This document shows, one piece after another, positions 1 through 20,761 of a stretch of DNA of 64,000 bases (positions are counted from its first letter, which is position 1; every line of letters begins with the position of its first letter). The notes beneath the pieces are model-generated. The model was not told the origin of the DNA. It saw only the letters and a program-made list of their open reading frames with translations, and ran no database searches. Both the position numbers and the translations under genes were made by a program. The stretch is from the NCBI RefSeq assembly GCF_021491375.1, contig NZ_JAKEVY010000005.1:186001-250000 (forward strand). Direction: 5' to 3'. The stretch comes from Flavihumibacter fluminis (GTDB lineage Bacteria > Bacteroidota > Bacteroidia > Chitinophagales > Chitinophagaceae).

Positions 1-1533
1 AGTTTCCAGTCGCAGGGCTGGACAGGTCAGGGAGTTCCTGCCAACTATATTGAGGACTACAATTTCCAACTGGTTAATTCTATCAATCCCCAGGCTGGCC
101 AGTACAGTGAATCCGGCATCATCGGGTACATGGCACGGATTAACTATGCATTTGATGACAAATACCTGTTGACTGCAACCTTCCGGGCTGATGGAGCTTC
201 GGTATTGGCGAAAGGTAATCAATGGGTAACCTATCCTGCGCTTTCACTTGGTTGGAATATTGACCGCGAAGGCTTCATGCAAAACCAGGATATTTTCAGT
301 AACCTGAAACTACGTGCGGGTTGGGGTATCAGTTCAAACGCGGGTATCAATCCTTATACTACCCTGGGAAGTTTGAGTACCGGTTTCTATAACTATGGAC
401 AGGGTACAACACCACTTGTGAATTTTGTAAACGGTTATACTATTAATACAATTCCCAACCCTAATCTCACCTGGGAAAAAACAAGAGGTATCAACTTCGG
501 ACTTGATTTCGGATTGTTGAACAATCGGTTGACCGGTACAATTGAATATTATAATACCAGCACAACAGATATCCTGCTGAGTAAGAGCCTGCCACGTAGC
601 CAGGGAGCCAACTCTATTCTAACCAATGTGGGTGAAACTGCCACCAATGGTATGGAATTCAGTTTAAGCAGTTATAATATTCAGGCTAAAAAACCAGGTG
701 GTTTTACCTGGAGAACAGATGTAAATGCATTTTTCAATCGTGAAAAAATTGTTGCCCTTCAACAGGGATTACAGCAGGATATTGCGAATGGCTGGTTTGT
801 TGGTCAGCCGATGACAGTGATTTATGATGTTCGGAAAATCGGTATCTGGCAATTAGGAGAGGAAGCAGAAGCTGCACAATACGGGCAGGCTCCTGGTGAT
901 ATAAAGTTGGAAGATGTTAATAAAAATAACGCAATTGGACCGGAAGACCGCCAGATCATTGGTGATTTTCAACCCAACCTGGTAGCAGGTTTAACCAATA
1001 GTTTCAGCTTTAAAGGATTTGATCTGAACGTAGTAATGTTTGGAAGATTTGGTCAAACTGTAGCAGCTACCTATTTGTCTGCTGATGGAGGTGCTGCAGG
1101 TTATCCCTTCTTCCTGAACAGCCGTGTCAATCAGCACAAAATCAACTATTGGACACCAACCAATCCAACCAACGACTTTCCTCAGCCTGATGCAAGCCGT
1201 GATGCTCAATTGTATACTTCCACATTAACCTACAGAGATGGTTCTTTCATCAAAATCAGGACTATTGATCTTGGCTATACATTCAAAAAGGCAATGTTAG
1301 AAAAGCTGAAGATGCAATCTTTACGGGTGTATGTATCTGCTCAGAATCCGTTCATTTTATGGGCGCCGCTGGTTCGCGATGGATTGGGAATTGATCCGGA
1401 AGGAAACGGCACTGGTAATGCTGTCAACTCCAATGCAGGTGGTGGATCTCCTGTTCAAACCAGGGCCATTACTGTGGGTATGGGTGTTCCGCCAAGTCGG
1501 TTATTCATTTTTGGCGTAAACCTGAATTTCTAA
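1..1533 (+). CDS. SusC/RagA-family TonB-linked outer-membrane protein (3' part only)
   Basis: The reading frame is open from base 1, so the gene begins outside the window and 510 C-terminal residues are visible. What is seen is the beta-barrel part of a SusC-type importer: repeated aromatic/Asn-rich strands, the stretch YLLTATFRADGASVLAKGN typical of the barrel, and the usual family ending in a short strand terminating LNF. It would take up an oligosaccharide or other large nutrient through the outer membrane with the SusD lipoprotein that starts 17 bp downstream. The plug, any STN domain and the signal peptide are off-window, so it cannot be said whether it signals to a FecR/sigma pair. The substrate cannot be read from the sequence; the GH43 gene downstream hints at a xylan- or arabinan-type glycan. 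Confidence 0.95.
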   Translation, partial: SFQSQGWTGQGVPANYIEDYNFQLVNSINPQAGQYSESGIIGYMARINYAFDDKYLLTATFRADGASVLAKGNQWVTYPALSLGWNIDREGFMQNQDIFSNLKLRAGWGISSNAGINPYTTLGSLSTGFYNYGQGTTPLVNFVNGYTINTIPNPNLTWEKTRGINFGLDFGLLNNRLTGTIEYYNTSTTDILLSKSLPRSQGANSILTNVGETATNGMEFSLSSYNIQAKKPGGFTWRTDVNAFFNREKIVALQQGLQQDIANGWFVGQPMTVIYDVRKIGIWQLGEEAEAAQYGQAPGDIKLEDVNKNNAIGPEDRQIIGDFQPNLVAGLTNSFSFKGFDLNVVMFGRFGQTVAATYLSADGGAAGYPFFLNSRVNQHKINYWTPTNPTNDFPQPDASRDAQLYTSTLTYRDGSFIKIRTIDLGYTFKKAMLEKLKMQSLRVYVSAQNPFILWAPLVRDGLGIDPEGNGTGNAVNSNAGGGSPVQTRAITVGMGVPPSRLFIFGVNLNF

Positions 1534-1550
1534 CCGAAAAAAATCAAACG

Positions 1551-3335
1551 ATGCGTATAAAAATAATTAACTACAGTTTAGTTCTTGCCCTGATTTCAGT
1601 TATTGCGGCAGGATGTAGCAAGGTGTTGGATGAACAGCCCAGAGCGGGAATTGATCCATCCTATTTCCGCACCCCGGAAGGTATCCAGGGTGGTATTGCA
1701 GGTATTTATTCTTCCTTCCGCGGTCATTGGGGTACACAAATTTTCACGCAGCTTTTTAATGCAGGTAGTGATGAATTTCAGAAAGGAGCGGCAGCGGATG
1801 TGCAGCATTGGTACACTTTCAATAATGCGCAGATCAGGACAGAAGCAAACAACTATGCCGGTTTTTGGAATTCCATGTTCATTAATATCAATACAGCGAA
1901 TGGTGTGCTCGAATATGGGGCTGCGGCCAATATGCCGGAAGCAACCAAGACCCAGGTATTGGCACAGGCCAAATTTTTACGTGCTTTCTGCTATTTCTAC
2001 CTGGTAACTACTTTCGGCGATGTTCCATTGCACATTGACTTTAATACAGAAGAATCCACGGCAGATTCACGCACTCCGGAAGGAGAAGTATATGCACAGA
2101 TCATTAAAGATTTAACAGAAGCCGCGCAGGATTTGCCTAGCCTCCCTGCGCCTGGAACAGGCAAACCAGCTACCAAGGCAACTGCTTTGTTTCTGCTTTC
2201 CAAAACTTATTTATGGAGAGGCTGGTCATCTGCTGCACAGTCTGGTGATTTCAACAGTGCGTACACCATTGCAAAAGACCTGATTGATAACAAGGCTCAG
2301 TACGGTTTAGACCTAATGCCTTATTTCCCTTCTGTGTTTGAGGAAGGAAATGAGTACAGTCCGGAAGTGCTGATGGTGATTGATCGTACCAAGGATCTTA
2401 AATTTGGCCAGAATTCAAATCCGGGAACTTTTGCCTCCAATCCTCAGGAGAACAAATCGAATTTCTTCTTTCGCCCCAACTATCCTGCGATTAATGCCAA
2501 CTATCCGGCAGGTGGTGGAGCCAATCTTACCGTGCGTGATGTAAACAATGGAAGACCTTTCCAGCGGATTCGTCCCAATACCCGATATGTTATTGATGTG
2601 GCATTCGCTAACCGGGAAACAGATTCCCGTTATGATGGTACCTTCCAAACAGTATGGTTATCGAATAGTTCTCCTATGTCAGCAGTTGGTTCACCTGGTG
2701 CTACTACTCCGCGTGGTCAGTTGATCAATGGTGTCGATACATCTATCTGGATGGCTGACAGAGTTGTGACCAGCCAGGAAAGAGCCAATTTTAAAGGAGT
2801 TATTTTTGAACCGGAGCATCTGCCAGGTGCCACTGTCCGGTACACAGCCAGTTATTATCCAAATCTTCGGAAATGGGATGATTCTACAAGGGCCGATATG
2901 AATGATTACTCAGATCGCCCATTCATACTCTTCCGATTTGCAGAAGTATATCTGATAGCAGCTGAGGCAGCTATTCAGGGAGGTGCAACTCCACAGGATG
3001 CTGCTGCCATGATAAATGTATTGAGGACAAGAGCTGCACTTAAACCGAATCAAACGCCGGCTGAATACAATGCTGCAGTTGCTGCTCAGCAAGTGAGTGC
3101 AGCTGACATGACGATTGATTTTCTACTTGATGAACGCAGCCGGGAACTTTTTGGTGAGTATACCAGGTGGTGGGACCTGGCGCGTACAAGAAGGCTTGTA
3201 CAACGTGTAAAAGCCTACAACCCTGAAGGTGCGGATGGAGTACAGGAGCATCATCGATTGAGACCGATACCCCAGGAACAAATTGACCTTGTAACAGAAG
3301 GTCCTGCATTCCCGCAAAATCCTGGTTATGAATAG
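1551..3335 (+). CDS. SusD/RagB-family nutrient-binding lipoprotein
   Basis: 594 residues. The N-terminus is a lipoprotein signal with lipobox AAGC (Cys22), so the mature protein is a lipid-anchored surface protein. The N-terminal part has SusD-type TPR helices (QAKFLRAFCYFYLVTTFGDVPL is the usual family signature, near residue 140), and the C-terminal part has the usual FAEVYLIAAEAA and DERSRELFGEYTRWWDL motifs before an RPIPQEQIDL ending. It caps the SusC barrel encoded 17 bp upstream and binds the ligand; the two genes are surely co-transcribed. A strong hairpin follows the stop codon. Ligand unknown. Confidence 0.95.
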   Translation: MRIKIINYSLVLALISVIAAGCSKVLDEQPRAGIDPSYFRTPEGIQGGIAGIYSSFRGHWGTQIFTQLFNAGSDEFQKGAAADVQHWYTFNNAQIRTEANNYAGFWNSMFININTANGVLEYGAAANMPEATKTQVLAQAKFLRAFCYFYLVTTFGDVPLHIDFNTEESTADSRTPEGEVYAQIIKDLTEAAQDLPSLPAPGTGKPATKATALFLLSKTYLWRGWSSAAQSGDFNSAYTIAKDLIDNKAQYGLDLMPYFPSVFEEGNEYSPEVLMVIDRTKDLKFGQNSNPGTFASNPQENKSNFFFRPNYPAINANYPAGGGANLTVRDVNNGRPFQRIRPNTRYVIDVAFANRETDSRYDGTFQTVWLSNSSPMSAVGSPGATTPRGQLINGVDTSIWMADRVVTSQERANFKGVIFEPEHLPGATVRYTASYYPNLRKWDDSTRADMNDYSDRPFILFRFAEVYLIAAEAAIQGGATPQDAAAMINVLRTRAALKPNQTPAEYNAAVAAQQVSAADMTIDFLLDERSRELFGEYTRWWDLARTRRLVQRVKAYNPEGADGVQEHHRLRPIPQEQIDLVTEGPAFPQNPGYE

Positions 3336-3379
3336 TTAGTAAGAGGCTGAAAAGCATATGGCTTGGTTATCCATATTCT

Positions 3380-3408
3380 GGAACAGGAAGGATTTTTCTT
3401 CCTGTTCC
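3380..3408 (+). terminator. Hairpin terminator/attenuator after susD
   Basis: Perfect 11-bp stem: GGAACAGGAAG (3380-3390), 7-nt loop, CTTCCTGTTCC (3398-3408), followed by only a short T run. It ends 22 bp before the haloperoxidase start codon, leaving no room for a separate promoter, so it more likely trims or attenuates a continuing transcript than ends it fully. Confidence 0.75.
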
Positions 3409-3430
3409 TTTCCATTTTAAGCAGTTTATT

Positions 3431-4879
3431 ATGGTTAGGCATTTCTTCCTTTTCGGGTTCCTTTTATTGAGCATAGCCGGTTCAACGCAACCTTCGGGCC
3501 TTAAAGAACCAACTGGAAAAAACAATCGCGCTCATCAATGGGGTGAAGTGATTATGACCTGCACCGCAAATGATACGGATCGTTTTCGGCCACGCCCCAC
3601 CGTTACCTCCCGTTTTCTGGGACTTATCTGGACAGCAGCATATGACGCATGGTCGAGGTATGATGACAAGGCTGTTCCGGTATATTTGTCTGATGTGGAG
3701 CGCCGTCCGGCTGTTGAACGGACACTGAAAAATAAAGAGCTAGCAATTAGTTATGCAGTATATCGGACTGCACTTATTTATTTTTATGCTGATTCGCTGC
3801 TACTGAAAGAGACAATGATAAAAATGGGTTTGAATCCCGATAACTTTTCAGTTGATCCAGGTACTGCAATCGGTATTGGGAACCTTGCCGCGAAACAAGT
3901 ATCAGAAAAAAGAGCGCGGGATGGCTCCAATCAATTGGGCGATGCTCCAGGCTCAGATGGGATGGCTTACGCTGATTATACCGCTTATCAACCTGTAAAT
4001 ACTGCTGACCATTTGGTTGAGCTGGCCAGGTGGCAGCCGAAATATTTTTCAGATGGAAAAGGAGGAAGATTTGCCCCATCCTGCCTTACCCCTCATTGGG
4101 GGTTGGTTAAACCCTTATTGATAGATTCCGCCAGTCAGTTCAGACCGGGGCCGCCACCTGCGATTGGTTCTGAACAACTCAAAAATGAAATCCGGCAGGT
4201 GGTGGAACTTCAGAGTAAGCTTACAGATGAACATAAGGCCCTGGTAGAATTCATGCGCGACGGGCCAAAATCGGTACAACAGGCAGGCCATTGGTTTATG
4301 TTTGGGCAACAGGTTTCCATCAGGGATCAACACACCCTGGATCAGGATGTTCAAATGTTCTTTCTGATTGAAGCTGCCGCGATGGATGCTTTTATCGCAT
4401 GCTGGGATGCCAAAATGCAATATGATTTTGCAAGACCTTATTCGCTGGTTCATGAGCTTTATGCGGATTCGATTATTAAGTTGTGGGCAGGTCCGGAAAA
4501 GGGTATGATAATGGCTCAAGGGCGGCACTGGCGACCTTATTCCCCCGAATCCTTTTTATGTCCGCCTTTTCCCTCTTATGTATCTGGTCACAGTACCGTT
4601 AGTGCAGCTTGTGCTGAGATCCTTCGCTTATTCAAAGGGAATGATCGTTTCGGGCATCATGTTACCCTGATTCCTGGAGCATTAACCGAGCCGGATCGTG
4701 CGGGAAAGCCAGTGGAATTGTTTTTTTCCACCTTTACTGAAACAGCAGAAATGGCTGGAATTTCACGCGTAATGGGTGGGTATCATATTCAATCTGAAAA
4801 TACTGAAGGATTAAAATTAGGCCGAAGCATTGCAGGAGCCATCTGGCATAAATACCGTCAATTTACCGGAAAAAAATAA
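3431..4879 (+). CDS. Vanadium-dependent haloperoxidase / PAP2-type phosphatase-fold protein, exported
   Basis: 482 residues with an N-terminal signal peptide (hydrophobic FFLFGFLLLSIAGS, residues 5-18), so probably periplasmic or secreted. The vanadate/phosphate-binding signature is complete in order: K328-x6-R335-P336, then SYVSGH with His387, then S445-R446-x5-H452. These correspond to the vanadate ligands and acid-base His of vanadium haloperoxidases and of PAP2 phosphatases. The long N-terminal helical region and total length fit bacterial haloperoxidase-like proteins better than the much shorter PAP2 lipid phosphatases. Whether it oxidises chloride, bromide or iodide, or acts as a phosphatase, cannot be told from the sequence. 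It lies between SusCD and the FG-GAP/UnbV lipoprotein with a 24-bp gap downstream, so it probably belongs to one transcript. Confidence 0.88.
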   Translation: MVRHFFLFGFLLLSIAGSTQPSGLKEPTGKNNRAHQWGEVIMTCTANDTDRFRPRPTVTSRFLGLIWTAAYDAWSRYDDKAVPVYLSDVERRPAVERTLKNKELAISYAVYRTALIYFYADSLLLKETMIKMGLNPDNFSVDPGTAIGIGNLAAKQVSEKRARDGSNQLGDAPGSDGMAYADYTAYQPVNTADHLVELARWQPKYFSDGKGGRFAPSCLTPHWGLVKPLLIDSASQFRPGPPPAIGSEQLKNEIRQVVELQSKLTDEHKALVEFMRDGPKSVQQAGHWFMFGQQVSIRDQHTLDQDVQMFFLIEAAAMDAFIACWDAKMQYDFARPYSLVHELYADSIIKLWAGPEKGMIMAQGRHWRPYSPESFLCPPFPSYVSGHSTVSAACAEILRLFKGNDRFGHHVTLIPGALTEPDRAGKPVELFFSTFTETAEMAGISRVMGGYHIQSENTEGLKLGRSIAGAIWHKYRQFTGKK

Positions 4880-4903
4880 ATAGCCTGAATAATACTAAAC
4901 ATT

Positions 4904-7900
4904 ATGCCTGCAAATAAAATAGTTCGTGACCTGGGGCTGCTTTTTGCATTTATTAGCCTGTTAGTTGCCTGCAATCAGAATCAGCCTGGCAAGACTGCCG
5001 AAACAAAAATATTCCGCAAACTGCCTTCCACCGAAAGTGGTATAACCTTTATGAACCTGGTGGATGAAAATTATCACAAAAACTATTTTGACAGTTTCGC
5101 TTATGTGTACAATGGTGCCGGAGTAGCAGTTGGTGATATTAACAATGATAGTCTGCCTGATATTTATTTTACCGGCAATGAAGTCCCTAATAAACTTTAT
5201 CTGAATCTGGGTGATTTAAAATTCAAAGACATTACTGCAGAAGCCGGTGTGGATGGAGGTGAAGGCTGGGATAATGGAGTTACGATGGTAGACATTAACA
5301 ACGACGGGTTGATGGATATCTATGTGTGTAAAGGAGGATACAGGGATACAGATGCATCCAGAAAAAATTTGTTGTATGTAAACCAGGGGAATCAGAAATT
5401 TAAAGAGATGGCTGCTTCCTATGGCATAGCAGATAGTGGATATTCGCAGCAGGCGTTGTTTTTTGATATGGACAATGACAATGACCTGGATCTTTATATT
5501 GCAGCACGACCGGACTCCTTTTACCTGGGATTGTCCCAGATGGTAAAAGGAAAAAGAAACCCTCCGGATCATAGCCGGAACAAACTTTACCGCAATGATC
5601 AGGGCAGGTATACAGAAATCGGTAAACAGGCCGGGATCGGAAATACCTATGGATATGCGCTTTCAGTTACCAATGCAGATTTGAATAATGATGGGTATGA
5701 GGATATTTTCATCTCCAATGATTATGCAGATAACGACTACATGTTCATTAATCAGGGAGATGGAACATTTAAAGATCTGATAAAAACAGCAACCAATCAC
5801 AACTCCCTTTTTTCAATGGGTGCTGATATTGCTGACATCAATAATGACGGAAGGGAAGATATTATGGTAATGGAAATGTTACCGGAAAATTATAAACGAT
5901 CCAAAGTATCTATGCCCCGTATGGATGTGGAAGGATTCTGGGCGATTGTTGACAGTGGATTTCAGCGTCAGTACATGCACAATGTTTTACACCTCAACCA
6001 GGGAAATCTTTTCTTTAGTGATATAGCTCAGCTTGCAGGAGTTTCCAAAACTGAATGGAGCTGGTCAACTTTACTGGCAGATTTTAATAACGACGGACAC
6101 CGGGACATATTTGTAGCAAATGGATACCGGCGTGACTTATTTGACGGAGATATCCTGGAAAAACAGAACGCATATGTAAAGGCGAATGTTCATAAATATA
6201 CATCGGCTGATGATATGTTTGAGCGTGGATTCAAGGAGTATATTGAAATCTATGATCCGATAAAAGTTCGTAATTATCTATTCAAAAACAATGGAGACCT
6301 CCATTTTGATAATGTATCGGAAAGCTGGGGATTTGAAGACAGTACATTTTCAAATGGTGCAGCGATCGCTGATTTTGATAATGATGGCGATATTGATCTT
6401 GTGATCAACAACCTGGAAATGGAAGCTCATTTGTATGAAAATACATCCAACGGAAAACACCGTTTTCTGCAATTGAAACTGCATGGTCCTAAGGGAAATC
6501 CAGATGGAATCGGTGCAAAAATATCCTTGTATTATGAAGGTAAAATGCAGCAGTATTTTGAACAGAAAACAGTAAGAGGATATTTGTCGTCCAATGATCC
6601 GCTGATTCATTTTGGCCTGGGTCAAATTAAAAAGATTGATAGTATAGTTGTCAGATGGTTAGATGGAAAGGAAAATAGAATAAGTGGAGCTGAAACGAAT
6701 CAAAAAATAAAGATTTGGCATACAGATGCAGAGATTCCATTTGCAAGCCCAACACAAAATCAGCCCTTATTTGTAGCAGAAAAAGGGTTGCTTTCTGCTC
6801 CCTTTGTTCACCGGGAAAACGAATATGATGAATATAAAGATCAGATCTTATTGCCACACATGTTTTCAAAATCAGGTCCATTCATTACCCTCGGTGATGT
6901 AACTGGTGATGGAAAAGAAGATGTTTTTGTTGGAGGGGCGGCCGGACAGGCCGGACGTTTATATATTCAACAGGGGGGTAAATTGCTGGCCCAGCCTCTT
7001 GCCGTATTTGAAGATGATGCTGCCTATGAAGATGAAGGTGTGCTATTTGCTGATGTGGATGCTGATGGAGATCTTGATTTGTATGTGGTAAGCGGGGGGG
7101 CAGCCTTTCCGGAAGGAGCTGAACAATATCAGGACAGGCTCTACATCAATAATGGAAAAGGACAGTTTACCAAAAGGGAACTATTGCCTACTGCCAGTAG
7201 TGGATCCTGTGTATCAGCTTTTGATTTTGATGGTGATGGAGACCTGGATATATACAGAGGCGGAAGGGTTGTTCCTCATCGTTACCCTTATGCGCCAAGG
7301 AGTTACCTACTGGTAAATGAAAATGGAAAACTGGTGGACAGAACGAAAGAACTGGCTCCCGCACTCCTTGAACCTGGAATGGTACATACTTCCACCTGGG
7401 CTGACCTGGACGGAGATACAAAAGCTGAACTGGTAGTTTCGGGCGAATGGATGCCTATCCGGATTTTCTCATTTGTGGGGGGTAAAATGGAAGAGCGTAC
7501 AGTTCAATTCCAGTTAAATGGTACGGAAGGGTGGTGGAATAAAATTACAGCAGCGGATATTGACAAGGATGGTGACCTGGATCTGATCGCAGGTAATCTC
7601 GGTGAAAATTACAAATTCAAAGCAAGTGCAAAAAAACCATTCGAGGTCTTTGCAAAAGATTTTGACAATAACGGCACCAATGATATTTTTCTTGCCAAAT
7701 ACAACGGAACTACGCAGGTGCCTATTCGGGGAAGGGAATGCACATCGCAACAATGTCCGTTTATAGCAGAGAAATTCCCAACTTTCTTATCCTTTGCTGA
7801 ATCCGATTTGAAAACAATTCTGGGTGATCAGATTGAATCCGCACTTCATTACAAAGCGCATCAGTTTTCGAGTATGCTATTTATTAATGAGGGAGGTAAG

Positions 7901-8230
7901 TTAAAACAACAACGATTACCGGTTGAAGCGCAATTGTCAACAGTAAATGGAATTATAGTACATGATTTTGATGCAGATGGGTATACTGATATCTTATTGT
8001 CCGGAAATAAGTTCGATGTAGAAGTGGAAACTACTCCTGCTGATGCATCACCGGGTTTATTTTTAAAAGGAACCGGTAAGCTTCAATTTCAACCATACGG
8101 AATAGAGGAATCAGGCTTTTTTGTACCCTACAATGTGAAAGATATGCAATTACTAAAGCAAGGACCGGGATTCGCGGTTCTGGTTAGTTCGAATAACGAT
8201 TCTCTTCGGACATTCAAACTAACCAGATAG
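4904..8230 (+). CDS. CRTAC1-type FG-GAP/VCBS repeat lipoprotein with ASPIC/UnbV domain
   Basis: 1108 residues; lipoprotein signal with lipobox Cys23 (SLLVAC). About fourteen Ca2+-type Asp/Asn loops of the form DxNxDGxxDI are visible through most of the protein (examples [48 protein letters not shown]), the hallmark of FG-GAP integrin-like beta-propeller blades. A UnbV/ASPIC domain sits in the middle (about residues 517-600: [13 protein letters not shown] ... IHFGLGQ ... [11 protein letters not shown]), separating two propeller halves. The family has no assigned biochemical function; surface binding or scaffolding is an inference from the fold and lipid anchor. The next gene starts 2 bp after its stop, so the two are translationally close. 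Confidence 0.9.
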
Positions 8231-8232
8231 AA

Positions 8233-10290
8233 ATGCGCTGGTTGCTGTTATACCTGTTTTTTGTGAGTGCTTGCAGGAATACCGACCTGAACCGACTGGG
8301 CTCAGCAAGTAGTCCCTATTTAAAGCAGCATGCCGATAATCCAGTGGATTGGTATGAGTGGGGAGAGGAAGCATTGACAAAGGCAAAGCTGGAGAATAAG
8401 CCTTTACTGATAAGTATTGGCTACGCTTCCTGTCACTGGTGTCATGTGATGGAAGAGGAATCCTTTATGGATACTGCTGTTGCAAGAATAATGAATGAGC
8501 AATTCATTTGTATAAAAGTAGATCGGGAAGAACGACCGGATATTGACAGGATTTATATGAATGCCTGTGAACTCATAACGGGCAATGCAGGATGGCCGCT
8601 CAATGCTTTTGCGTTGCCCGATGGTAGTCCGTTTTACGCAGGCACCTATTACGAAAAAGAGAGCTGGAAATCATTACTGTTGCAGATTAGTAAAACCTAC
8701 CGGCAACAGCCTGGCAAGGTAAAGTTGCAGGCCCAATCACTTTCTCACGGCATTGCACAATTGGAGTTTTCAGTAATTGATACTTCAGTAAATAGCAGCG
8801 CATTCACGGTAAGCGATTATTATAAAATTTATTCCGCTGTTCAAAACAAATTGGACACAGTTTTCGGAGGATTAACAGGAGCTCCCAAATTTCCAAACTC
8901 ACCGCTGCTGGAATATCAGTTGCAGTATGCTGCCATAACAGAGGATACTATCGCTTTGCAACAATTGCTAACTACCCTGTATAAAATGGCTTTGGGCGGA
9001 ATCTATGATCAGTTGGAAGGCGGGTTTGCAAGGTATACAGAGGATAGTGCCTGGGCAACGCCGCATTTTGAAAAAATGCTTTACGATAATGCACAGTTGA
9101 TCAGTGTCTATGCCAAAGCCTTTAAATTAACCCGTGATCCACTGCTGGAAAAAGTTGCGAGACAAACAATTGACTTCGTTTTTAAAACATTGAAAACTGC
9201 AGAAGGTGCTTATTTCAGTTCCACTAACGCAGTTTCTGAAGAAGGTGAGGGTTATTATTATACCTGGACCTATAAGGAATTAGAAACACTGATTCCTGAT
9301 TTCCTGTCGCAGTTCAGCAACTATTACCAGGTTAATAAATCCGGAAACTGGAAAAACGGCAGGTCTGTATTAAGAGCTGCTTTTACTGAAGAGCAATTTG
9401 CTTTATTGAATAAACTGAATCCCGAATCCTTCTCTGCTCAATTAGCAAGTGCCAATCAAAAACTGCTTGCTTACCGGGTTAAAAGAGCAAAACCATCGGT
9501 AGACACTAAAATTATAGTATCCTGGAATGCACTGATGGTAATGGCATATATGGATGCTTATACTGCATTCAGGGACACTGCCTACCTGAATAGAGCAACT
9601 CAGTTAGGTGAATTGCTGGCAGCAGAAATGGATAAGGGTATTCGCCATATCGCAGAAGCCGGGAAAGAAGAAGTGTTCCTGGAAGATTACGTACTAGTAG
9701 GTAAGGCGTTTCTGCAGTTGTATCAGCAGGATTTTAATAAGGAATGGTTATTCAGATCAGCCGGTATTTGTGAACAGTTAATTGAAAAGTTCTATGATAA
9801 TGAGGCTGGAATATTTTATTATACCAGTGCGGAGAAAGGCTATCCGGTCATCCGGAAAATTGGTTTGGCGGATACGGAAATTCCTGCTCCGAATGCAATT
9901 GCTGCGATTCTTTTGTATCAGATTGGGAGCTTATTGGATAATAAGGAATATCTGCAGCTATCAGCCAGCCTGTTTGGTAAAATTAAACTTGAATTAGTTG
10001 GTGATAAAGCACCGTATTACGGCACCTGGGCCCAATTGGCAGCCTGGTATGGGTATGGAACAAAGGAAGTTGCGATAGCAGGTTCTGATGCACTCCGGAT
10101 AAATCAGGAGCTTCAGCAAAACTATTTGCCGCTGGCTATTTTTCTTGGAACTGAAAAAGAGGAGTTTATTCCCCTCTTGCATAACAAAGTTACAATGACT
10201 AAAACGATGATTTATGTATGTGAAGATGGTACCTGTAAACGCCCTGTTGAAAATCCACGGCTGGCTTTAAAGCAAATCAATCAGAAGTAA
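8233..10290 (+). CDS. DUF255/YyaL (SPATA20)-family protein with thioredoxin-like CHWC motif, lipoprotein form
   Basis: 685 residues, the normal length for the YyaL/SPATA20 family. The family signature [19 protein letters not shown] is present near residues 24-44, followed by the thioredoxin-like segment [14 protein letters not shown] with Cys67 and Cys70, then [10 protein letters not shown]; the rest matches the helical AGE-like barrel of the family ([30 protein letters not shown]). Members are usually described as cytosolic. Here the protein begins with a short hydrophobic stretch ending VSAC (Cys14), a probable lipobox, so it is predicted to be exported and lipid-anchored. It starts 2 bp after the FG-GAP/UnbV gene. 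The family's reaction is not established. Confidence 0.88.
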
Positions 10291-10357
10291 AACATTTCTT
10301 CCCTTTAAATCGACAAAATTACTATCAGCCTGAATAGTTCACTGCTAATTTTAAGTT

Positions 10358-12028
10358 ATGAAAAGAGTTCTATGTTGGATGTTTCTGTTGCTGCTCATAC
10401 AACAAGTAAGAGCCCAGGAAACCAAAACTTATACGAATCCTATTTTGACCGGATTTTATCCTGATCCCAGTATTTGTCGTGCCGGGGATGATTACTATAT
10501 CGTGAATTCATCCTTTGCGTATTATCCGGGCTTGCCGATTTTTCATAGTCGTGATCTGGTAAACTGGAAGCAGATCGGTCATGCTTTGGATCGGCCGGAA
10601 CAATTGCCATTAATTGGTGCCGGAGTATCGAGAGGACTTTTTGCACCATCCATCAGTTATTATAAAGGTGTTTTTTACATTGTTTGTACCCTGATTGACA
10701 AGGGTGGTAATTTTGTGATAACAGCTACGAATCCTGCAGGACCATGGAGCAATCCGGTATACATCAAAGAAGTAAATGGTATAGATCCTTCTTTGTTTTT
10801 TGATGAAACAACTGATAAATCTTTCATTATTTACAACAGCGATCCTCCCAATCGGAAGACATTATGGAATGGGCATCGTACCATACGGATGTATGAATTT
10901 GATTATAAGTCTAAAAAGGTGGTAGGTGAAGAAATGTTAATGGTGAATGGAGGAGTTGATACGTCCAAACATCCGGTATGGATTGAAGCGCCTCATATTT
11001 ACAAAATTAAGGACTGGTACTACCTGATGTGCGCAGAAGGTGGAACCGGTTACAACCATTCTGAGGTTATATTCAGAAGTAAATCAGTAACTGGTCCTTT
11101 TAAACCCTGGGATCAAAATCCAATTTTGACACAACGACATCTGGATCGATCCAGGAAAAATCCCATAACCACTGCCGGACATGCAGATCTGGTTGAAACA
11201 CCGCAGGGTGAATGGTATGCGGTGTTTTTAGGATGTCGTCCTTATGAAGGCGATCATTATAATATTGGCCGGGAAACATTTCTTACGCCTGTAACCTGGA
11301 CAACAGATGGCTGGCCGGTTATAACCCGGGAAGAGGAAGAAGTACAGTATCGATATCCGTTGCCAAAAGGTGTTAAGGGGCAACTGGATAATGCGTTTAG
11401 CGGCAATTTTACTTTTAAGGATGATTTTAAGGAGAAAGCGCTGAATGTACGCTTTACGTTCCTGAGAACTGTAACCGATACCTGGTATTCAACAACCAGT
11501 CAGCCTGGTTGGCTGGAGATTTCGCTTCGTCCGCATACAGTAAGCGGACGCGATAACCCATCCTTTGTTGGATTTCGGCAGCATCACCATGAGGCAAGTG
11601 CAAGTACAAAAATGAAATTTTCTGCCGAAACTGAAAAGGAAAAAGCAGGATTGATCATTTTTCAGAATGAAACACATTTTTATTATTTATGTAAATCTGT
11701 TGAAGCAGGTAAACAGGTAGTGCAATTGTATAAATCTGAAAAGGACAGCATGCAATTACTGGTATCAAAACCGGTTAATAACAATAAAGAAGCTGTTTAT
11801 CTTAGGATTGAGCCTAATAAAGCAGTGTATACATTTTCCTGGTCGCCCGATGGAAAGCGTTGGGAAACCCTGAAGGAATTGGATGGCCGCTATTTAAGTA
11901 CGGCCACTGCTGGTGGGTTTGTAGGCGCGGTTTTCGGATTGTATGCAACCTCTATGGGTGAGCAAAGTATTAATAAAGCTTCGTTTGACTGGTTTGAATA
12001 CACTGGAAAGGATGCTGTATTCCGGTAA
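10358..12028 (+). CDS. Glycoside hydrolase family 43 with C-terminal beta-sandwich domain
   Basis: 556 residues; signal peptide of about 20 residues cut before ETKTY. The GH43 five-blade propeller has the three expected acidic residues: general base Asp36 in YPDPSI, pKa-modulating Asp143 in GIDPSLFF, and general acid Glu210 in WIEAPHIY. After about residue 330 comes a concanavalin-A-like domain of the kind that follows the catalytic domain in beta-xylosidases. Typical GH43 activities are beta-xylosidase or alpha-L-arabinofuranosidase; the exact one is not readable here. It is the only recognisable glycosidase of this locus and lies 67 bp after the DUF255 gene, so it may share the transcript or have its own weak promoter. 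Its stop codon is 1 bp from the stop of the convergent MFS gene. Confidence 0.92.
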   Translation: MKRVLCWMFLLLLIQQVRAQETKTYTNPILTGFYPDPSICRAGDDYYIVNSSFAYYPGLPIFHSRDLVNWKQIGHALDRPEQLPLIGAGVSRGLFAPSISYYKGVFYIVCTLIDKGGNFVITATNPAGPWSNPVYIKEVNGIDPSLFFDETTDKSFIIYNSDPPNRKTLWNGHRTIRMYEFDYKSKKVVGEEMLMVNGGVDTSKHPVWIEAPHIYKIKDWYYLMCAEGGTGYNHSEVIFRSKSVTGPFKPWDQNPILTQRHLDRSRKNPITTAGHADLVETPQGEWYAVFLGCRPYEGDHYNIGRETFLTPVTWTTDGWPVITREEEEVQYRYPLPKGVKGQLDNAFSGNFTFKDDFKEKALNVRFTFLRTVTDTWYSTTSQPGWLEISLRPHTVSGRDNPSFVGFRQHHHEASASTKMKFSAETEKEKAGLIIFQNETHFYYLCKSVEAGKQVVQLYKSEKDSMQLLVSKPVNNNKEAVYLRIEPNKAVYTFSWSPDGKRWETLKELDGRYLSTATAGGFVGAVFGLYATSMGEQSINKASFDWFEYTGKDAVFR

Positions 12029-15527: not shown

Positions 15528-16115
15528 ATGTATCAGGACCAACGGCCATCTTACGACTGCGAGCGGTTGTACCGATATTTTGAAGAGGTATATGAACAGC
15601 TTCTGCAAATCGGAAGAGCCCGCCAACTGGAGGAGTTGGTACAAAAGGACCTGATTCATGAATTGTTTCTGTCCTTTTACGAGAAACAGATTGATTTCGA
15701 TACGATCAGTTATCCGAATTCCTATATCATAACTTCCTATAAACGAAAGATCATTGATCTATTTCGGGAATCGCACAGGTATTCCCAGGATGATAACTGG
15801 ATGAATCATCCCCTTACCCTCATCCCTTCCCCGGAAACAACTCTCATGGAAAAGGAATCCATGCAGGAATTGACACAGTTGCTCAGGAAAGCATACGACC
15901 AATTACCGGAGCGCTGTAAGCGGGCCATTTTTCTGAAATATTACAAAGGGCTATCTGTTTCAGCTATTCAGGCAGAAACCGGCTGGTCGGCTCAAAGTAT
16001 TTATAATTATTTATCAATAGGTTTAAAGCAGTTGAAGGCCGAGCTGGTAGTGCATCCGAATCTGGCAACTGGTGGGTCTTCCATGCTGCTTTTGTTGCTT
16101 TTTGCAACGATTTAA
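15528..16115 (+). CDS. ECF-type RNA polymerase sigma-70 factor
   Basis: 195 residues with the two-domain layout of ECF sigma factors: region 2 around residues 40-90 (SYIITSYKRKIIDLFRESHR, core and -10 binding) and region 4 around 125-175 (LPERCKRAIFLKYYKGLSV then a helix-turn-helix SAIQAETGWSAQSIYNYL). It is followed after 67 bp by a FecR anti-sigma factor and then by an STN-domain SusC, the standard arrangement in which ligand uptake at the outer membrane releases the sigma factor to switch on the same locus. It diverges from the sulfatase gene, so sulfatase and uptake genes probably respond to the same signal. Confidence 0.9.
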   Translation: MYQDQRPSYDCERLYRYFEEVYEQLLQIGRARQLEELVQKDLIHELFLSFYEKQIDFDTISYPNSYIITSYKRKIIDLFRESHRYSQDDNWMNHPLTLIPSPETTLMEKESMQELTQLLRKAYDQLPERCKRAIFLKYYKGLSVSAIQAETGWSAQSIYNYLSIGLKQLKAELVVHPNLATGGSSMLLLLLFATI

Positions 16116-16182
16116 AAAAACTTCAGAAAAAGCAGGTAGATTCCTGTCTGTTTTCCGTCTTATCCTCATAACGCTGCTTGTG

Positions 16183-17295
16183 ATGGATAGAAAAAACAGG
16201 GATCAGTTACTGGAAGACGAATCATTTATTCGTTTTTGTACACGACCTACAGAAACTGATAAATCCCATTGGGCTGCTTACCTGGCTACTTATCCGGAAG
16301 AGTGGGCGACACTGGAAGATGCCAGGTTGCTGCTTGTATCGCTGTTCGGCGTACTCAAAGAAGAGGATAAAAAACAACAGCTCGACAGACTAAAGCAATC
16401 TATAGCTGAACAAAATCCGGAAATCAAAACCCCTGTTCCGGTTAAACGCTGGCTCGCCTATGCGGCGGCGGTCTTGTTGCCGGTGCTTATTTGGTATCAA
16501 TGGTTCGGCAACCCGACCCAGCCAGCCACTACCCCAACAACCAAAAAACTGGTGCAAAAAGCTGCGGATACTACAAAGCTTACAGCCAGTGAACAATATC
16601 TGACAACAGTTGGGGAAAAACGATCACTGGTATTACCGGATGGGTCAACAGTGGTTTTAAATGCCAATTCCTCTTTGAGCTTATCCGCTACATTTGGCAG
16701 TTCAAACCGCACTGTGCAACTGATCGGTGAGGCTTTTTTTGATATAAAACATGATCCGTCTGCTCCATTTTTTGTAACCACACCACAGTTTACCGTAAAA
16801 GTTCATGGTACCGCATTTAATGTACGGGCATTTAAAGGTTCAAGGCAGGCTGAAACTGCATTAATCAGAGGATCGGTTGAAGTGATTTTACCTGCTAAAA
16901 AAGATCGTTCCATATTTCTGGAACCCAACCAGAAGTTGGTATGGGAAGAAAAGGAACTTACTGCGGCTACCGTTTCCGGTTCAACCAGCGAAGTGGTAGA
17001 ACCAACTGCTACGGTACTACCCATCACCATTGGTAAAGATGGCAATTCCATTATTGAAACCGTTTGGACCCGGAATTCCCTTGAAATCAACGACGAACGC
17101 TTTGATCAATTAAAAGAAAAGTTTGAAAGATGGTTCCAGGTTCAGCTTGTTTTTGAGGATGAAGCCATTAAACAATACCGGTTTACTGCTTTTTTTGAGA
17201 ATATCCCCCTGGAACAGGCCCTAGAAGCTATGCAGCTATCCAATTCCTTTAGTTATGAATTAAACGATAAAATACTAAAAATCAGATCAAAATGA
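16183..17295 (+). CDS. FecR-family anti-sigma factor
   Basis: 370 residues from the ATG at 16183. An in-frame start further upstream at 16072 would overlap the sigma gene and add a Cys/Phe-rich tail unlike the family, so it was not used. The cytoplasmic N-terminal part (about 1-88) binds the sigma factor; one membrane helix follows (residues 89-108, RWLAYAAAVLLPVLIWYQWFG region); the periplasmic part has the FecR domain (VGEKRSLVLPDGSTVVLNANSSL, GEAFFDIKHD, FTVKVHGTAFNVRAF) and a C-terminal DUF4974 domain ending KILKIRSK. It passes a signal from the SusC STN domain to the sigma factor. A hairpin terminator follows the stop codon. Confidence 0.92.
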   Translation: MDRKNRDQLLEDESFIRFCTRPTETDKSHWAAYLATYPEEWATLEDARLLLVSLFGVLKEEDKKQQLDRLKQSIAEQNPEIKTPVPVKRWLAYAAAVLLPVLIWYQWFGNPTQPATTPTTKKLVQKAADTTKLTASEQYLTTVGEKRSLVLPDGSTVVLNANSSLSLSATFGSSNRTVQLIGEAFFDIKHDPSAPFFVTTPQFTVKVHGTAFNVRAFKGSRQAETALIRGSVEVILPAKKDRSIFLEPNQKLVWEEKELTAATVSGSTSEVVEPTATVLPITIGKDGNSIIETVWTRNSLEINDERFDQLKEKFERWFQVQLVFEDEAIKQYRFTAFFENIPLEQALEAMQLSNSFSYELNDKILKIRSK

Positions 17296-17305
17296 CAGAT
17301 AAATG

Positions 17306-17330
17306 AAAAGGGAGTTGCGCTCTCCCTTTT
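17306..17330 (+). terminator. Rho-independent terminator after fecR
   Basis: Perfect 9-bp stem AAAAGGGAG (17306-17314), 7-nt loop, CTCCCTTTT (17322-17330), starting 10 bp after the FecR stop. It separates sigma/FecR transcription from the SusC gene 73 bp further on. Confidence 0.75.
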
Positions 17331-17346
17331 CCATTAGTTTAACCCA

Positions 17347-17383
17347 CAGAAGCAGTGTTCAATTGGAGTTGGCAACTGCTCTG
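17347..17383 (+). promoter_or_regulatory. Leader hairpin upstream of susC
   Basis: CAGAAGCAGT (17347-17356) can pair with ACTGCTCTG (17375-17383), giving nine base pairs with one bulged A, 20 bp before the SusC start codon. It may be part of the 5' leader or a binding site. Low certainty; no promoter box is clear in this gap. Confidence 0.3.
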
Positions 17384-17403
17384 TATAAAACCAGAACAAA
17401 AGT

Positions 17404-20400
17404 ATGAAAAAAACAAAGGACCGCACGTGCCCTTTCCTGCCGAGGCAAGTGCTAAAAACACTGCTGCTTATGAAGTTAACGATCGCATTTATGCTGATTA
17501 CCTGTTTACAGGTTTCGGCAAAGTCCTATTCGCAGGAGCGAATATCTGTTAATTTTTCTCAAACCCGCTTGAAAAAAGCACTGAAAGAGATTGAACAACA
17601 ATCTTCTTACCGTTTCGTTTACAGCAGTGATAAGATCCCCGGAAATGTAACCGTTGATTTTAAAGGGGAGAATGTTCGGGTAGTCGAAATTTTAGGATCA
17701 ATCCTTTCTGCCAATGAATTAAAATTTAAGGAGCTGCCGAACCGAATTATAGTAATTACCGCTTCCAGTTCAGAGGATCAGAATAAAACGATCACAGGTA
17801 AAGTAACAGGCTCCAAAGGGGAACCCTTATCCGGAGCAACGGTTCAGGTAAAAGGCAGTTCATTGATTACCACTACGGATGATGCGGGACAGTTTTCAAT
17901 TGCAGTTCCGGACAATGATGCCATTCTAGTGGTTTCTTATGTTGATATGCAAACTGCTGAAATCAGGGTGGGAGTAAATGCGAATCTTATCATTCAGTTA
18001 AAAGCAGTGGATCAGTCGATGAATGAAGTGGTTGTTGTTGGATATGGTACTCAGAAAAAAGTCAGTATGACCAGTGCTGTAACCCAGGTTAAAGGTGAAG
18101 ACCTGGTAAGAAGACCGGTTTCCAATCTGCAGCAGGCATTACAAGGGCAGGCTCCTGGTCTAACAGTTTTAGACAGGGGAGGAGAGCCGGGCCGCTCTGC
18201 AGCCACATTGCGGGTAAGAGGTATTACCACTTTCTCCGGAAATAGTTCCGGAAATAGTTCCCCACTCATTATTGTAGATGGTGTGGAGCAACAGATGTTT
18301 AACCTGAATCCGGAAGATGTGGAAAGTATCTCTGTATTGAAAGATGCATCCTCAACAGCCATTTATGGTTCACGTGCCGCAAATGGAGTGGTATTGATTA
18401 CAACTAAAAGAGCTAAAACCGGAAAAGTTCAGATCGCTTATAATGGATATTATGCCATTCAGAAATCTGTAAACCAGCCGGAAAATATGGAATTGGAAAA
18501 ATACATGCGGTATCAGCAATTAGCCTATACAAACCAGGGATTAACAATTCCCGCTCGTTATACTGATGAAAGTATCGATACCTGGGTAAATTCTTCAGAC
18601 CGTTATAAATATCCGGATGTAAATACATGGTTCCAAACAGTATTGAAAGCTGCACCACAGCATAGTCATAATGTTTCCTTTAGCGGGGGAAATGAATTTT
18701 CCCGTACCCGCGTGAGTATGCGCTATATGGACCAGGGAGGGATTGCCCCGAATTATAGCGCATCCATTCGGGAGATCCGGATTAATAATGATATGCAACT
18801 CCACAAACGGCTGAAAATGAGTGCAGACTTTAACTATCGGTATAATATGTCCAGAAGTCCTTTTGCATCTGATGTGTTTAACCGTTTTTTTCATGGAACA
18901 TTGTTTGCAGCTCCAAAGTATCCGGATGGCACATACGGGCTTAGTCAACAGGGATTTAATCCGCTCCTCCTTGCTGAAAAATCAGGCAATAATAATATAG
19001 CCAGTAACTATTTTTACGCTTCTGGTAAAATGGAATATCAGTTGTTGAAAGGACTAACACTTAGTGCCCAGGTTTCTGCAGTTATGGATTTTACAGAGCA
19101 GAAAGCTTACCGGAATGCGGTAAATAATTTTGATTCTCTTACCGGAAGGCGATATCAGGTAGCAAATAACGCACTGACTGAAACACGTAATCGATATAGG
19201 GAAATTACAACCAACTATCTGGCGAATTATGCTACTAGTTTTGGTCGGCATGAGTTGAAAGCACTTGTTGGATTTTCAGAATTGTATAATAATGGCTATA
19301 ACTTGTCGGCTTATCGGGAACGGTTTTACAATAATGACATACAATCAATAGGACAGGGGGCCAATGATCCAACCAAGGATAATTCCGGAAATGAATACAA
19401 ATTCGGATTGCGCTCTTATTTTGCCCGACTTAATTATTCCTTTGACCAGAAATATTTGCTGGAAGTTAACGGCAGGTATGATGGATCATCCAGGTTTACC
19501 GGCAACAAACAGTATAGTTTTTTCCCATCCTTTTCTGCAGCCTGGAGAATTACAGAAGAGGATTTTTTTGATAACCTGAATACGCCATTTAATGAACTAA
19601 AGATTCGGGGGTCATGGGGGCAAACGGGTAATCAAACCGTTCCTCTCTACAGCTATTTTGCGTCATTAACACAGGGATCTTACACCTTTGGAGGCGTGGC
19701 TGCTCCAACTTTCTCGCAAACTGTTCTGGCTGATCCAAGCATATCCTGGGAAACCAATACACAAACCGATATTGGTATTGAGGGGAGCCTTCTTGGCTAT
19801 AAACTTTCTTTTTCTGTTGATTATTATAAAAAGCGAACCAGTGGTATATTACTGGCATTGCCATTGCCTGTAGTTACGGGTTTTACTTCATCCAATCAGA
19901 ATGCAGGTGTAATTGATAATAAGGGTTGGGAGATTTCATTAGGATATCGTAACAATGAGCATAAATTCACTTATGCCATCAGCGGTAATGTTGCAATCAA
20001 TAGAAATGAAGTGATTGATTTAAAAGGAGGTGGTCCATTTATCAATAGCTCATATGATCTGGACCCTCGTTACATAGTAAAAGAGGGATTGCCTTATAAC
20101 TCACATTGGGGGTATAAAACGGATGGGTATTTTCAAAGTCAGCAAGAAATTGATAATTATCCTACCATCGCACCCAATACAAAACCAGGTGATGTTAAAT
20201 ATGTTGATCTGAATAAGGATGGAAGAATCAATGCAGACGACTGGACAGTTATTGGGAACCCTTTTCCAAAATACACATTTGGTGCTACGGCAGAACTTGG
20301 TTATCGTAATTTTTCTCTGAACCTGCTTTTCCAGGGAGCTGCTGATGTAGATACCCGGTTGTCTGGGGCCTTGTCTGAATATGGAATCTTTGAGGGATTT

Positions 20401-20742
20401 ACACATAAAATTGTTACTGATAACTATTGGACACCTGAGCGTCCCAATGCACGTTTCCCTTTGCCAAGGAAAAGTGATCAGAGAAATGTTAATACATCAG
20501 ACAGGCTGATTATAGATGGATCTTACCTGCGACTGAAAAATCTCCAGCTAAATTATTCCGTTCCTTCACCACTCTTAAAAAAAGCTGGAATTAATGCAGC
20601 AAGAATTTATTTATCTGGAACGAACTTATTAACATTCTCAAAGTTGAACGAATGGAACCTTGATCCTGAAGCAGAATCAGGCAGGGGAATCTATTACCCT
20701 CAAACCAGTTTGTACACCTTAGGATTAAACCTGAATTTTTAA
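17404..20742 (+). CDS. SusC/RagA-family TonB-dependent transducer with STN domain
   Basis: 1112 residues. The start at 17404 gives a long N-terminal extension before a classic signal region (MKLTIAFMLITCLQVSAKSYSQ), common among Chitinophagaceae SusC proteins. Domains in order: STN secretin-like signalling domain (about 49-119), carboxypeptidase-regulatory-like beta-sandwich (about 130-205, ITGKVTGSKGEPLSGATV), plug beginning with NEVVVVGYGTQKK (about 206-330), then the barrel ending TLGLNLNF. It imports a glycan fragment with the SusD protein encoded 19 bp downstream and, through the STN domain, signals to the FecR/sigma pair upstream. The surrounding sulfatases suggest a sulfated polysaccharide; this is inference. 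Confidence 0.95.
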   Translation: MKKTKDRTCPFLPRQVLKTLLLMKLTIAFMLITCLQVSAKSYSQERISVNFSQTRLKKALKEIEQQSSYRFVYSSDKIPGNVTVDFKGENVRVVEILGSILSANELKFKELPNRIIVITASSSEDQNKTITGKVTGSKGEPLSGATVQVKGSSLITTTDDAGQFSIAVPDNDAILVVSYVDMQTAEIRVGVNANLIIQLKAVDQSMNEVVVVGYGTQKKVSMTSAVTQVKGEDLVRRPVSNLQQALQGQAPGLTVLDRGGEPGRSAATLRVRGITTFSGNSSGNSSPLIIVDGVEQQMFNLNPEDVESISVLKDASSTAIYGSRAANGVVLITTKRAKTGKVQIAYNGYYAIQKSVNQPENMELEKYMRYQQLAYTNQGLTIPARYTDESIDTWVNSSDRYKYPDVNTWFQTVLKAAPQHSHNVSFSGGNEFSRTRVSMRYMDQGGIAPNYSASIREIRINNDMQLHKRLKMSADFNYRYNMSRSPFASDVFNRFFHGTLFAAPKYPDGTYGLSQQGFNPLLLAEKSGNNNIASNYFYASGKMEYQLLKGLTLSAQVSAVMDFTEQKAYRNAVNNFDSLTGRRYQVANNALTETRNRYREITTNYLANYATSFGRHELKALVGFSELYNNGYNLSAYRERFYNNDIQSIGQGANDPTKDNSGNEYKFGLRSYFARLNYSFDQKYLLEVNGRYDGSSRFTGNKQYSFFPSFSAAWRITEEDFFDNLNTPFNELKIRGSWGQTGNQTVPLYSYFASLTQGSYTFGGVAAPTFSQTVLADPSISWETNTQTDIGIEGSLLGYKLSFSVDYYKKRTSGILLALPLPVVTGFTSSNQNAGVIDNKGWEISLGYRNNEHKFTYAISGNVAINRNEVIDLKGGGPFINSSYDLDPRYIVKEGLPYNSHWGYKTDGYFQSQQEIDNYPTIAPNTKPGDVKYVDLNKDGRINADDWTVIGNPFPKYTFGATAELGYRNFSLNLLFQGAADVDTRLSGALSEYGIFEGFTHKIVTDNYWTPERPNARFPLPRKSDQRNVNTSDRLIIDGSYLRLKNLQLNYSVPSPLLKKAGINAARIYLSGTNLLTFSKLNEWNLDPEAESGRGIYYPQTSLYTLGLNLNF

Positions 20743-20761
20743 TTCGTCAACTCGATTAATT

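Follow-up and report, generated by a model that had tools for sequence, protein, structure and literature searches.

In the genome of Flavihumibacter fluminis, a protein with the fold of a vanadium-dependent haloperoxidase (VHPO; 3431..4879, 482 aa), an FG-GAP/UnbV lipoprotein (4904..8230, 1108 aa) and a DUF255 lipoprotein (8233..10290, 685 aa) are encoded in succession on the + strand behind SusC (1..1533) and SusD (1551..3335), at the left end of a 64,000-nucleotide stretch (positions 186,001 to 250,000 of contig NZ_JAKEVY010000005.1; hereafter the window). We are highly confident that this set represents a conserved, xylan-linked module of surface proteins. The locus as a whole we read as one for the utilisation of xylan, probably feruloylated glucuronoarabinoxylan, with an added extracellular oxidative module, a reading to which we give slightly less than even weight; the proposal that halogen chemistry is how the enzyme attacks phenolic parts is more tentative still. 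Since the surface set is conserved and linked to xylan, the finding suggests that plant walls may be a target of halogen chemistry by xylan-eating bacteria of soil and water. Glycan loci of Bacteroidota are viewed as hydrolytic, and a haloperoxidase module in those for xylan would extend this repertoire to oxidative halogen chemistry.

Recurrence of the block in other genera

A sequence-only reading of this DNA had proposed that these genes act jointly and had set a neighbourhood survey as the test that could overturn the idea. In our survey the arrangement SusC–SusD–VHPO–FG-GAP–DUF255 recurs in other genera, and therefore the block is more than chance. In all six other genomes of the family that we fetched, the genes for VHPO, FG-GAP and DUF255 follow one another directly, in this order. 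Five of the six have SusC and SusD in front of this trio; the exception is G035, whose SusD gene is found beyond the other end of the trio on the opposite strand and where no SusC gene was seen up to the contig end.

A scan of named genomes returned 55 VHPO loci, the best match (91% identity) belonging to Flavihumibacter cheonanensis. In forty of these loci the VHPO gene is called and flanked by 5 kb or more of sequence on each side (the 15 left out are L080 and L084, where the VHPO frame was not called, and 13 with less than 5 kb on one side). Sus genes, FG-GAP and DUF255 occur together in seven of the 40, Sus genes and FG-GAP in 20, and neither in 13. In every one of the 27 loci with Sus genes and a long FG-GAP gene, 80 bp or less separates the VHPO gene from an FG-GAP-type gene. 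The 20 Flavobacterium loci have a different SusCD, and between VHPO and the long FG-GAP gene they carry a 180-aa gene and, in 19/20, a shorter TPR/FG-GAP protein, which in these 19 is also the nearest FG-GAP-type neighbour of the VHPO. A DUF255 protein is encoded within 30 kb in 20/20 of them versus 0/20 control stretches. The controls, taken from five of these genomes, are 20-kb pieces placed at round coordinates of five large contigs, whereas the span searched around most loci was about 40 kb. Because two families with different SusCD and different gene order share the three genes, we conclude that VHPO, long FG-GAP and DUF255 lipoprotein go together.

This result bears on the disfavoured and highly improbable explanation that the genes are chance neighbours hitch-hiking in one lineage. 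The synteny is partly by descent, with a single Flavobacterium clade, and VHPOs without these neighbours exist; but the same trio stands in Flavobacterium with another SusCD and another order, and FG-GAP proteins pair repeatedly with another VHPO family, as described below.

VHPO orthologues at E <= 1e-60 were found in 7 of 294 family genomes, from 4 of 101 genera, and at E 1e-100 in 10 of 395 genomes of a phylum draw. In a quick tree of 57 rows, the 20 Flavobacterium copies form one clade (SH-aLRT 100) and the loci without the neighbours amount to three changes. One contig with VHPO and FG-GAP genes (L041) is filed as a gammaproteobacterial metagenome-assembled genome (MAG); it is probably mis-binned, since its VHPO clusters in the tree with one from a Chitinophagaceae MAG. 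The same genome occurs twice across two of our locus sets (L028/L034, L031/L038, L032/L083), and the sets are not additive.

The GH43 gene (10358..12028, + strand), which the sequence-only reading had counted as part of the set, is found behind the block in the Flavihumibacter copies (window, L034, L035) and in no others. We therefore rejected it as a module member and regard it as an accessory, local addition.

The haloperoxidase and its lipoprotein partners

The vanadate site predicted from the sequence (K328, R335, H387, S445-R446, H452) is complete: these residues, together with S385 and G386, are invariant across 31 aligned sequences, the window VHPO and 30 relatives picked from the sequences at hand. 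They fit what we take to be the vanadate-site motif, K-x6-R-P, SGH and S-R-x3-G-x-H. A PDB sequence search with the 482-aa protein returned haloperoxidases of the NapH kind (best four, E 5e-52 to 3e-37). The AlphaFold model (mean predicted local distance difference test score, pLDDT, 86.8) has the two-domain VHPO fold, and among the 50 Foldseek matches listed it superposes on NapH1, NapH3 and XhnO11 with template modelling (TM) scores of 0.78-0.80 and on acid phosphatases with 0.22-0.33 by query length; the scores for Zobellia iodoperoxidase are 0.63-0.66. The protein is not of the NapH type, which lacks a histidine at the SGH position: H387 is present and invariant, the corresponding residue being S or F in four NapH-like chains (printed alignments) and H in the Zobellia enzyme. 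In classical haloperoxidases, the SGH histidine acts as the acid-base residue.

Membership of the PAP2 superfamily, in which vanadate and phosphate sites are shared, would also allow the protein to be a phosphatase, or to work without redox chemistry in the manner of NapH3, on substrates that may or may not be phosphorylated; the top Foldseek match is NapH3, which its title calls a rearrangement enzyme. We consider this very unlikely in view of the two-domain haloperoxidase architecture, with DUF6851 and VCPO_2nd over 482 aa (class A acid phosphatases have one PAP2 domain in about 210-230 aa), the low acid phosphatase scores next to those for NapH1, and the presence of the histidine that NapH3 is missing.

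An export signal had been claimed for every protein of the block. Judged by eye and by a simple lipobox pattern, this holds for the SusD, FG-GAP and DUF255 proteins of the window, which fit the pattern, but not for the window VHPO, which does not. The pattern fits six of 14 VHPOs, and three more look lipoprotein-like by eye.

The FG-GAP protein carries FG-GAP_3 in 10 stretches followed by UnbV_ASPIC, the propeller-then-UnbV order of CRTAC1/UnbV proteins. CRTAC1 is the best match both by profile and, for the model (pLDDT 87.8), by Foldseek, with murine CRTAC1 aligned over about 600 columns; beyond these CRTAC1-like first ~600 residues, a second FG-GAP region gives integrin-alpha-like matches. 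Among the matches listed at E 1e-80, the same genome encodes 10 long FG-GAP proteins, and 10/10 of their genes adjoin SusC/SusD genes (four SusD-like proteins and one SusC tail recognised by Pfam, the rest by phmmer). Nine of the ten stand on the same strand downstream of SusC/SusD, with at most two genes or another FG-GAP gene between; the one at L024 is on the opposite strand. Four of these loci encode a VHPO of another family, about 440 aa long (VHPO440), whose L013 member, the one tested against solved structures, is related to the Zobellia iodoperoxidase over its full length.

Across 60 family genomes the E 1e-60 threshold yielded 63 VHPO440 genes. A long FG-GAP gene lies within 5 kb of at least 40 of them, a pairing expected by chance in about 1.6% of cases each on a rough uniform estimate. 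At least 39 of these pairs are on the same strand, and at least 36 have the FG-GAP gene upstream. Among the matches listed, both genes are present in 30 genomes, neither in 27, and a single one in 1 and 2, a co-presence test that is indicative only because the genomes are related. The sequence-only reading had treated the FG-GAP lipoprotein as part of the set. It is conserved there, but proteins of its type accompany SusCD in general, and a second VHPO family too, and are not special to this locus.

It could be argued from this that the lipoprotein is the substrate, with the VHPO halogenating or cross-linking the FG-GAP protein or SusD to mature a surface complex to which the glycan is incidental. 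Two distinct VHPO families do pair with long FG-GAP proteins, and the 60-genome counts of proximity and joint presence speak for such a relation, but FG-GAP proteins also adjoin SusCD without a recognised VHPO at L023, L024, L025 and L026, and 2/60 genomes have FG-GAP but no VHPO440 among the matches listed. We judge this explanation rather improbable. Beside two SusCD–FG-GAP–VHPO440 loci (L013:3524-5427, L012:10216-11700) we also observed AhpC/TSA, Cu-monooxygenase-like and FG-GAP proteins, the last with a CxxC near the start; these are further redox-type proteins around the same module.

The third member contains the PF03190 (DUF255) domain with a CxxC, in the form CHWCH, and is 37% identical to a copy without signal in the same genome. 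CHWCH is kept in that copy as well as in the 12 cassette-type and three Flavobacterium copies compared. Nine of 13 cassette copies fit the lipobox pattern, three more look lipoprotein-like by eye, and the start of the L033 copy is uncalled. In Flavobacterium, 19/20 DUF255 proteins have a lipoprotein-like start by eye, the start of the remaining one being poorly called. AhpC/TSA thioredoxin-like proteins are encoded beside the L013 locus and far upstream of the polysaccharide utilisation locus (PUL) of the window. For DUF255 we infer a role in coping with oxidants.

Xylan-type gene context and proposed chemistry

Xylan-type markers, that is, at least one of xylose isomerase/xylulokinase, GH67, GH43 or a feruloyl-esterase-like gene, were found in 11/11 Chitinophagaceae-type Sus loci versus 0/21 loci without Sus and FG-GAP genes; the informative part is the contrast with the 21, some of which are on short contigs, and the 11/11 is descriptive only. 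L080 and L084 were kept among the 21, and L041, L042 and L085 (short contigs with FG-GAP and no Sus gene) are in neither group. Profile checks on Chitinophagaceae-type representatives identified GH67, GH30, GH127 and GH97, with xylose isomerase above its cut-off and xylulokinase and XynC-like matches below theirs. For the GH43 protein of the window, the best PDB matches are structures named beta-xylanase, GH43_12 and beta-xylosidase.

With up to 20 kb of added sequence per side, the 20 Flavobacterium loci show feruloyl-esterase-like genes in 18 cases, GH3 in 19, GH43 in 15, GH97 in 13 and GH95 in 11. At least one of GH43, GH67, xylose isomerase, xylulokinase and esterase occurs in 18/20 of the extended loci versus 2/20 control stretches, where we counted no DUF255, no esterase, and one each of GH43, GH3 and a xylulokinase-like gene. 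The loci without a marker, L052 and L068, both have little contig left. Three loci (L053, L061, L062) were extended after the places of GH43 had been seen in six genomes, the other 17 without such choice. On representatives from L061 and L062, profiles confirmed DUF255, GH43, GH8, GH9, GH31 and SASA/putative esterases. What the Flavobacterium loci add is support for the module; they leave the case for the chemistry as it was. The plant-derived aromatic glycan that the sequence-only reading had imagined is borne out insofar as the neighbours point to glucuronoarabinoxylan with feruloyl-esterase-like genes.

Several observations weigh against the xylan-linked oxidative reading. The 11/11 count is descriptive because the marker references were partly drawn from these very loci, and neighbour labels generally reflect phmmer similarity to chosen reference proteins, with representatives alone checked by Pfam or NCBIfam. 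Within the first 10 kb, just 7/20 Flavobacterium loci have a marker (GH3 in seven, GH43 in one), the xylan link appearing at 10-30 kb. The seven esterases tested match the feruloyl-esterase half of the NCBIfam xylanase/feruloyl esterase model, all below a cut-off that is set for the two-domain protein. At the four other SusCD–FG-GAP–VHPO loci of the same genome we recognised no xylan gene, most neighbours being without profile annotation. The DUF6851-type VHPOs of marine Flavobacteriaceae have no recognised Sus or xylan genes within 10 kb, which means that xylan is not necessarily the enzyme's substrate. The VHPO is absent from 4 of the 6 shown genomes of the window's own genus, and the Chitinophagaceae-type loci are not monophyletic in the VHPO tree (5 changes). 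Co-variation of distances among the five proteins (r 0.81-0.93 over 10-14 loci) counts in favour of the reading, but may simply be ancestry. Finally, no H2O2-forming oxidase was recognised in the block.

With these points in the balance, the reading that we prefer would work as follows. Outside the cell, the VHPO would convert H2O2 and halide to an electrophilic halogen species, which would attack or detoxify xylan phenolics such as ferulate cross-links and lignin-carbohydrate bonds. The FG-GAP/CRTAC1-like lipoprotein may serve as a scaffold or docking partner that holds enzyme or substrate at the SusCD transporter, and the thioredoxin-domain lipoprotein (DUF255) may keep neighbouring surface proteins reduced or remove oxidised products. 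SusCD would import the released oligosaccharides, to be trimmed by GH43 or other local glycosidases.

A broader version, which we think unlikely on balance, makes the CRTAC1-like double-propeller lipoprotein a dedicated VHPO partner docked on SusCD in a general surface system of Bacteroidota. Each copy would carry out localised halogen chemistry on an aromatic or aromatic-decorated polymer at the transporter mouth, the window copy with DUF255 being the xylan version. If this were true, halogenated soil organic matter would have a source in bacteria that is coupled to glycans.

The VHPO might also serve defence or detoxification, disposing of plant- or competitor-derived H2O2 or making hypohalite against competitors, and be merely co-induced with xylan uptake. 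We regard this as unlikely. The gene for the Zobellia iodoperoxidase vIPO3 rises on Ascophyllum and is discussed together with algal reactive oxygen species and halogen defence in the part of PMC9296495 that we consulted. VHPOs without uptake genes exist. In 12/20 Flavobacterium loci a gene similar to DUF417 (RclC family) lies a few genes from the VHPO (e.g. L053:17246-17734), and 8/8 of those tested pass the Pfam cut-off; the consulted portion of PMC12096828 places E. coli RclC, a DUF417 protein, in the hypothiocyanite response. A link of these Flavobacterium genes to reactive-halogen stress is possible. However, 0/4 DUF417-like genes tested from marine loci pass the cut-off, the window's genome is without DUF417, and defence leaves the tight pairing of the VHPO with SusC–SusD, FG-GAP and DUF255 and the xylan gene content unexplained. 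As a general marker of hypohalite stress, DUF417/RclC was set aside for the same marine and window results and for an empty NCBIfam scan of one such gene; we keep it as a lead only.

The marine-type Flavobacteriaceae loci with a DUF6851 VHPO and no recognised Sus genes (L043, L044, L045, L048, L049, L050, L051, L055, L081) form a second context for this enzyme. Six of the nine carry a DUF417/DoxX-like gene and seven a member of a probable outer-membrane protein family. This family, of about 360-400 aa with an N-terminal QGCVA(I/V)R, recurs beside haloperoxidase genes of differing types. Its members at L010:10807-11889 (C36 of the window's own genome), L045:11860-13002 and L064:17257-18450 match each other at E <1e-57, and one has a Phenol_MetA_deg match.

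Locus layout and relation to known systems

We confirmed the six reading frames of the sequence-only reading, all on the + strand, together with their spacers of 17, 95, 24, 2 and 67 bp. The order is SusC (tail), SusD, VHPO, FG-GAP/UnbV lipoprotein, DUF255 lipoprotein and GH43, and the respective Pfam calls agree: TonB barrel; SusD_RagB; DUF6851, VCPO_2nd and PAP2; FG-GAP_3 and UnbV_ASPIC; Thioredox_DsbH (DUF255); Glyco_hydro_43 and GH43_C2. All six genes are present, but the locus is larger than the six, since SusC and the regulator extend to the left of the window. The SusC/RagA TonB-dependent receptor starts 1637 bp outside (G000:C37:184363), the window holding the last 510 of its 1056 aa; SusD/RagB is a lipoprotein of 594 aa with the lipobox pattern to C22. 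Left of SusC, and divergent from it, an HTCS-type hybrid two-component regulator of 1367 aa is encoded; GH3, GH2, sulfatase and GH95 genes follow farther left. The locus thus has the tandem SusC–SusD pair, the glycan-active enzymes (GH43, GH3, GH2, GH95, sulfatase) and the PUL-type regulator (HTCS) of a PUL. On the right a convergent MFS gene, one base past GH43, closes the block. The GH95 gene (L009:9376-11832, ~6 to 9 kb left of the window) is in two reading frames, covering 1-323 and 348-408 of the 408 profile positions, and looks frame-disrupted or mis-sequenced.

In the gap between SusD and VHPO, a consensus scan found a hairpin (3380..3408, + strand; 13-bp stem, then a T-rich tail). It resembles a terminator or attenuator, and hence a single transcript for the whole block is not certain; the scan gave 16 such sites versus 8.9 in shuffles. 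Promoter-like sites were fewer than in shuffles (14 versus 25.0) and uninformative. About 5 kb downstream of the block, at 15528-22348, the window holds a probable second SusC–SusD pair, after two sigma/anti-sigma-looking genes.

In the open-access literature, to which our search extended (subscription papers lay outside it), vanadium-dependent haloperoxidase, SusD and Bacteroidetes were not found together, consistent with the earlier claim that the joint role is undescribed. Among the papers listed for ASPIC/UnbV, none contains SusD, and papers with both FG-GAP and SusD concern other subjects, by title and the start of the abstract. Vanadium, haloperoxidase and polysaccharide utilization do occur together in PMC9296495 and PMC12188728, and the former treats the rise of the Zobellia iodoperoxidase on a brown alga as a response to algal defence. 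The individual PUL elements are known, and the new part is the conserved set of VHPO, FG-GAP/UnbV and DUF255 in xylan loci, which gives the two lipoproteins a concrete context. The module is also a gene-level candidate for the halogenation of soil organic matter, a process whose key enzymes and organisms are called largely unknown in the consulted part of PMC4926216.

Compared with solved structures, the DUF255 lipoprotein shares the thioredoxin-like domain and the CHWCH of DUF255/Thioredox_DsbH proteins (7tkv, 3ira) and differs by its lipoprotein-type N-terminus; YyaL/SSP411 are presumably among its relatives. Mammalian CRTAC1 (9etn) resembles the first ~600 residues of the FG-GAP protein in propeller and UnbV domain, but the window protein is a bacterial lipoprotein with a second FG-GAP region. 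The Curvularia inaequalis vanadium chloroperoxidase, whose active site we take to be of the SGH type, gives fold matches at E 2e-11 to 6e-10 to the window VHPO, although it is a fungal enzyme with 14-15% identity. The vanadium iodoperoxidase of Zobellia galactanivorans (4cit/4usz) has TSGHS at the same place and a full-length relative in the genome's second VHPO family, but from it the window VHPO is distant and carries DUF6851. NapH1, NapH3 and XhnO11, among the closest solved structures at 24-30% identity, lie presumably in Streptomyces-type antibiotic synthesis, in contrast to the glycan uptake context and the SGH of the window VHPO. At the level of the locus, the xylan PULs of Bacteroidota are alike in SusC/SusD, an HTCS or LacI regulator, xylan-type glycosidases, esterases and nearby xylose catabolism; unlike them, loci of the window type add the VHPO, the 1100-aa FG-GAP/UnbV lipoprotein and the DUF255 lipoprotein as a conserved set.

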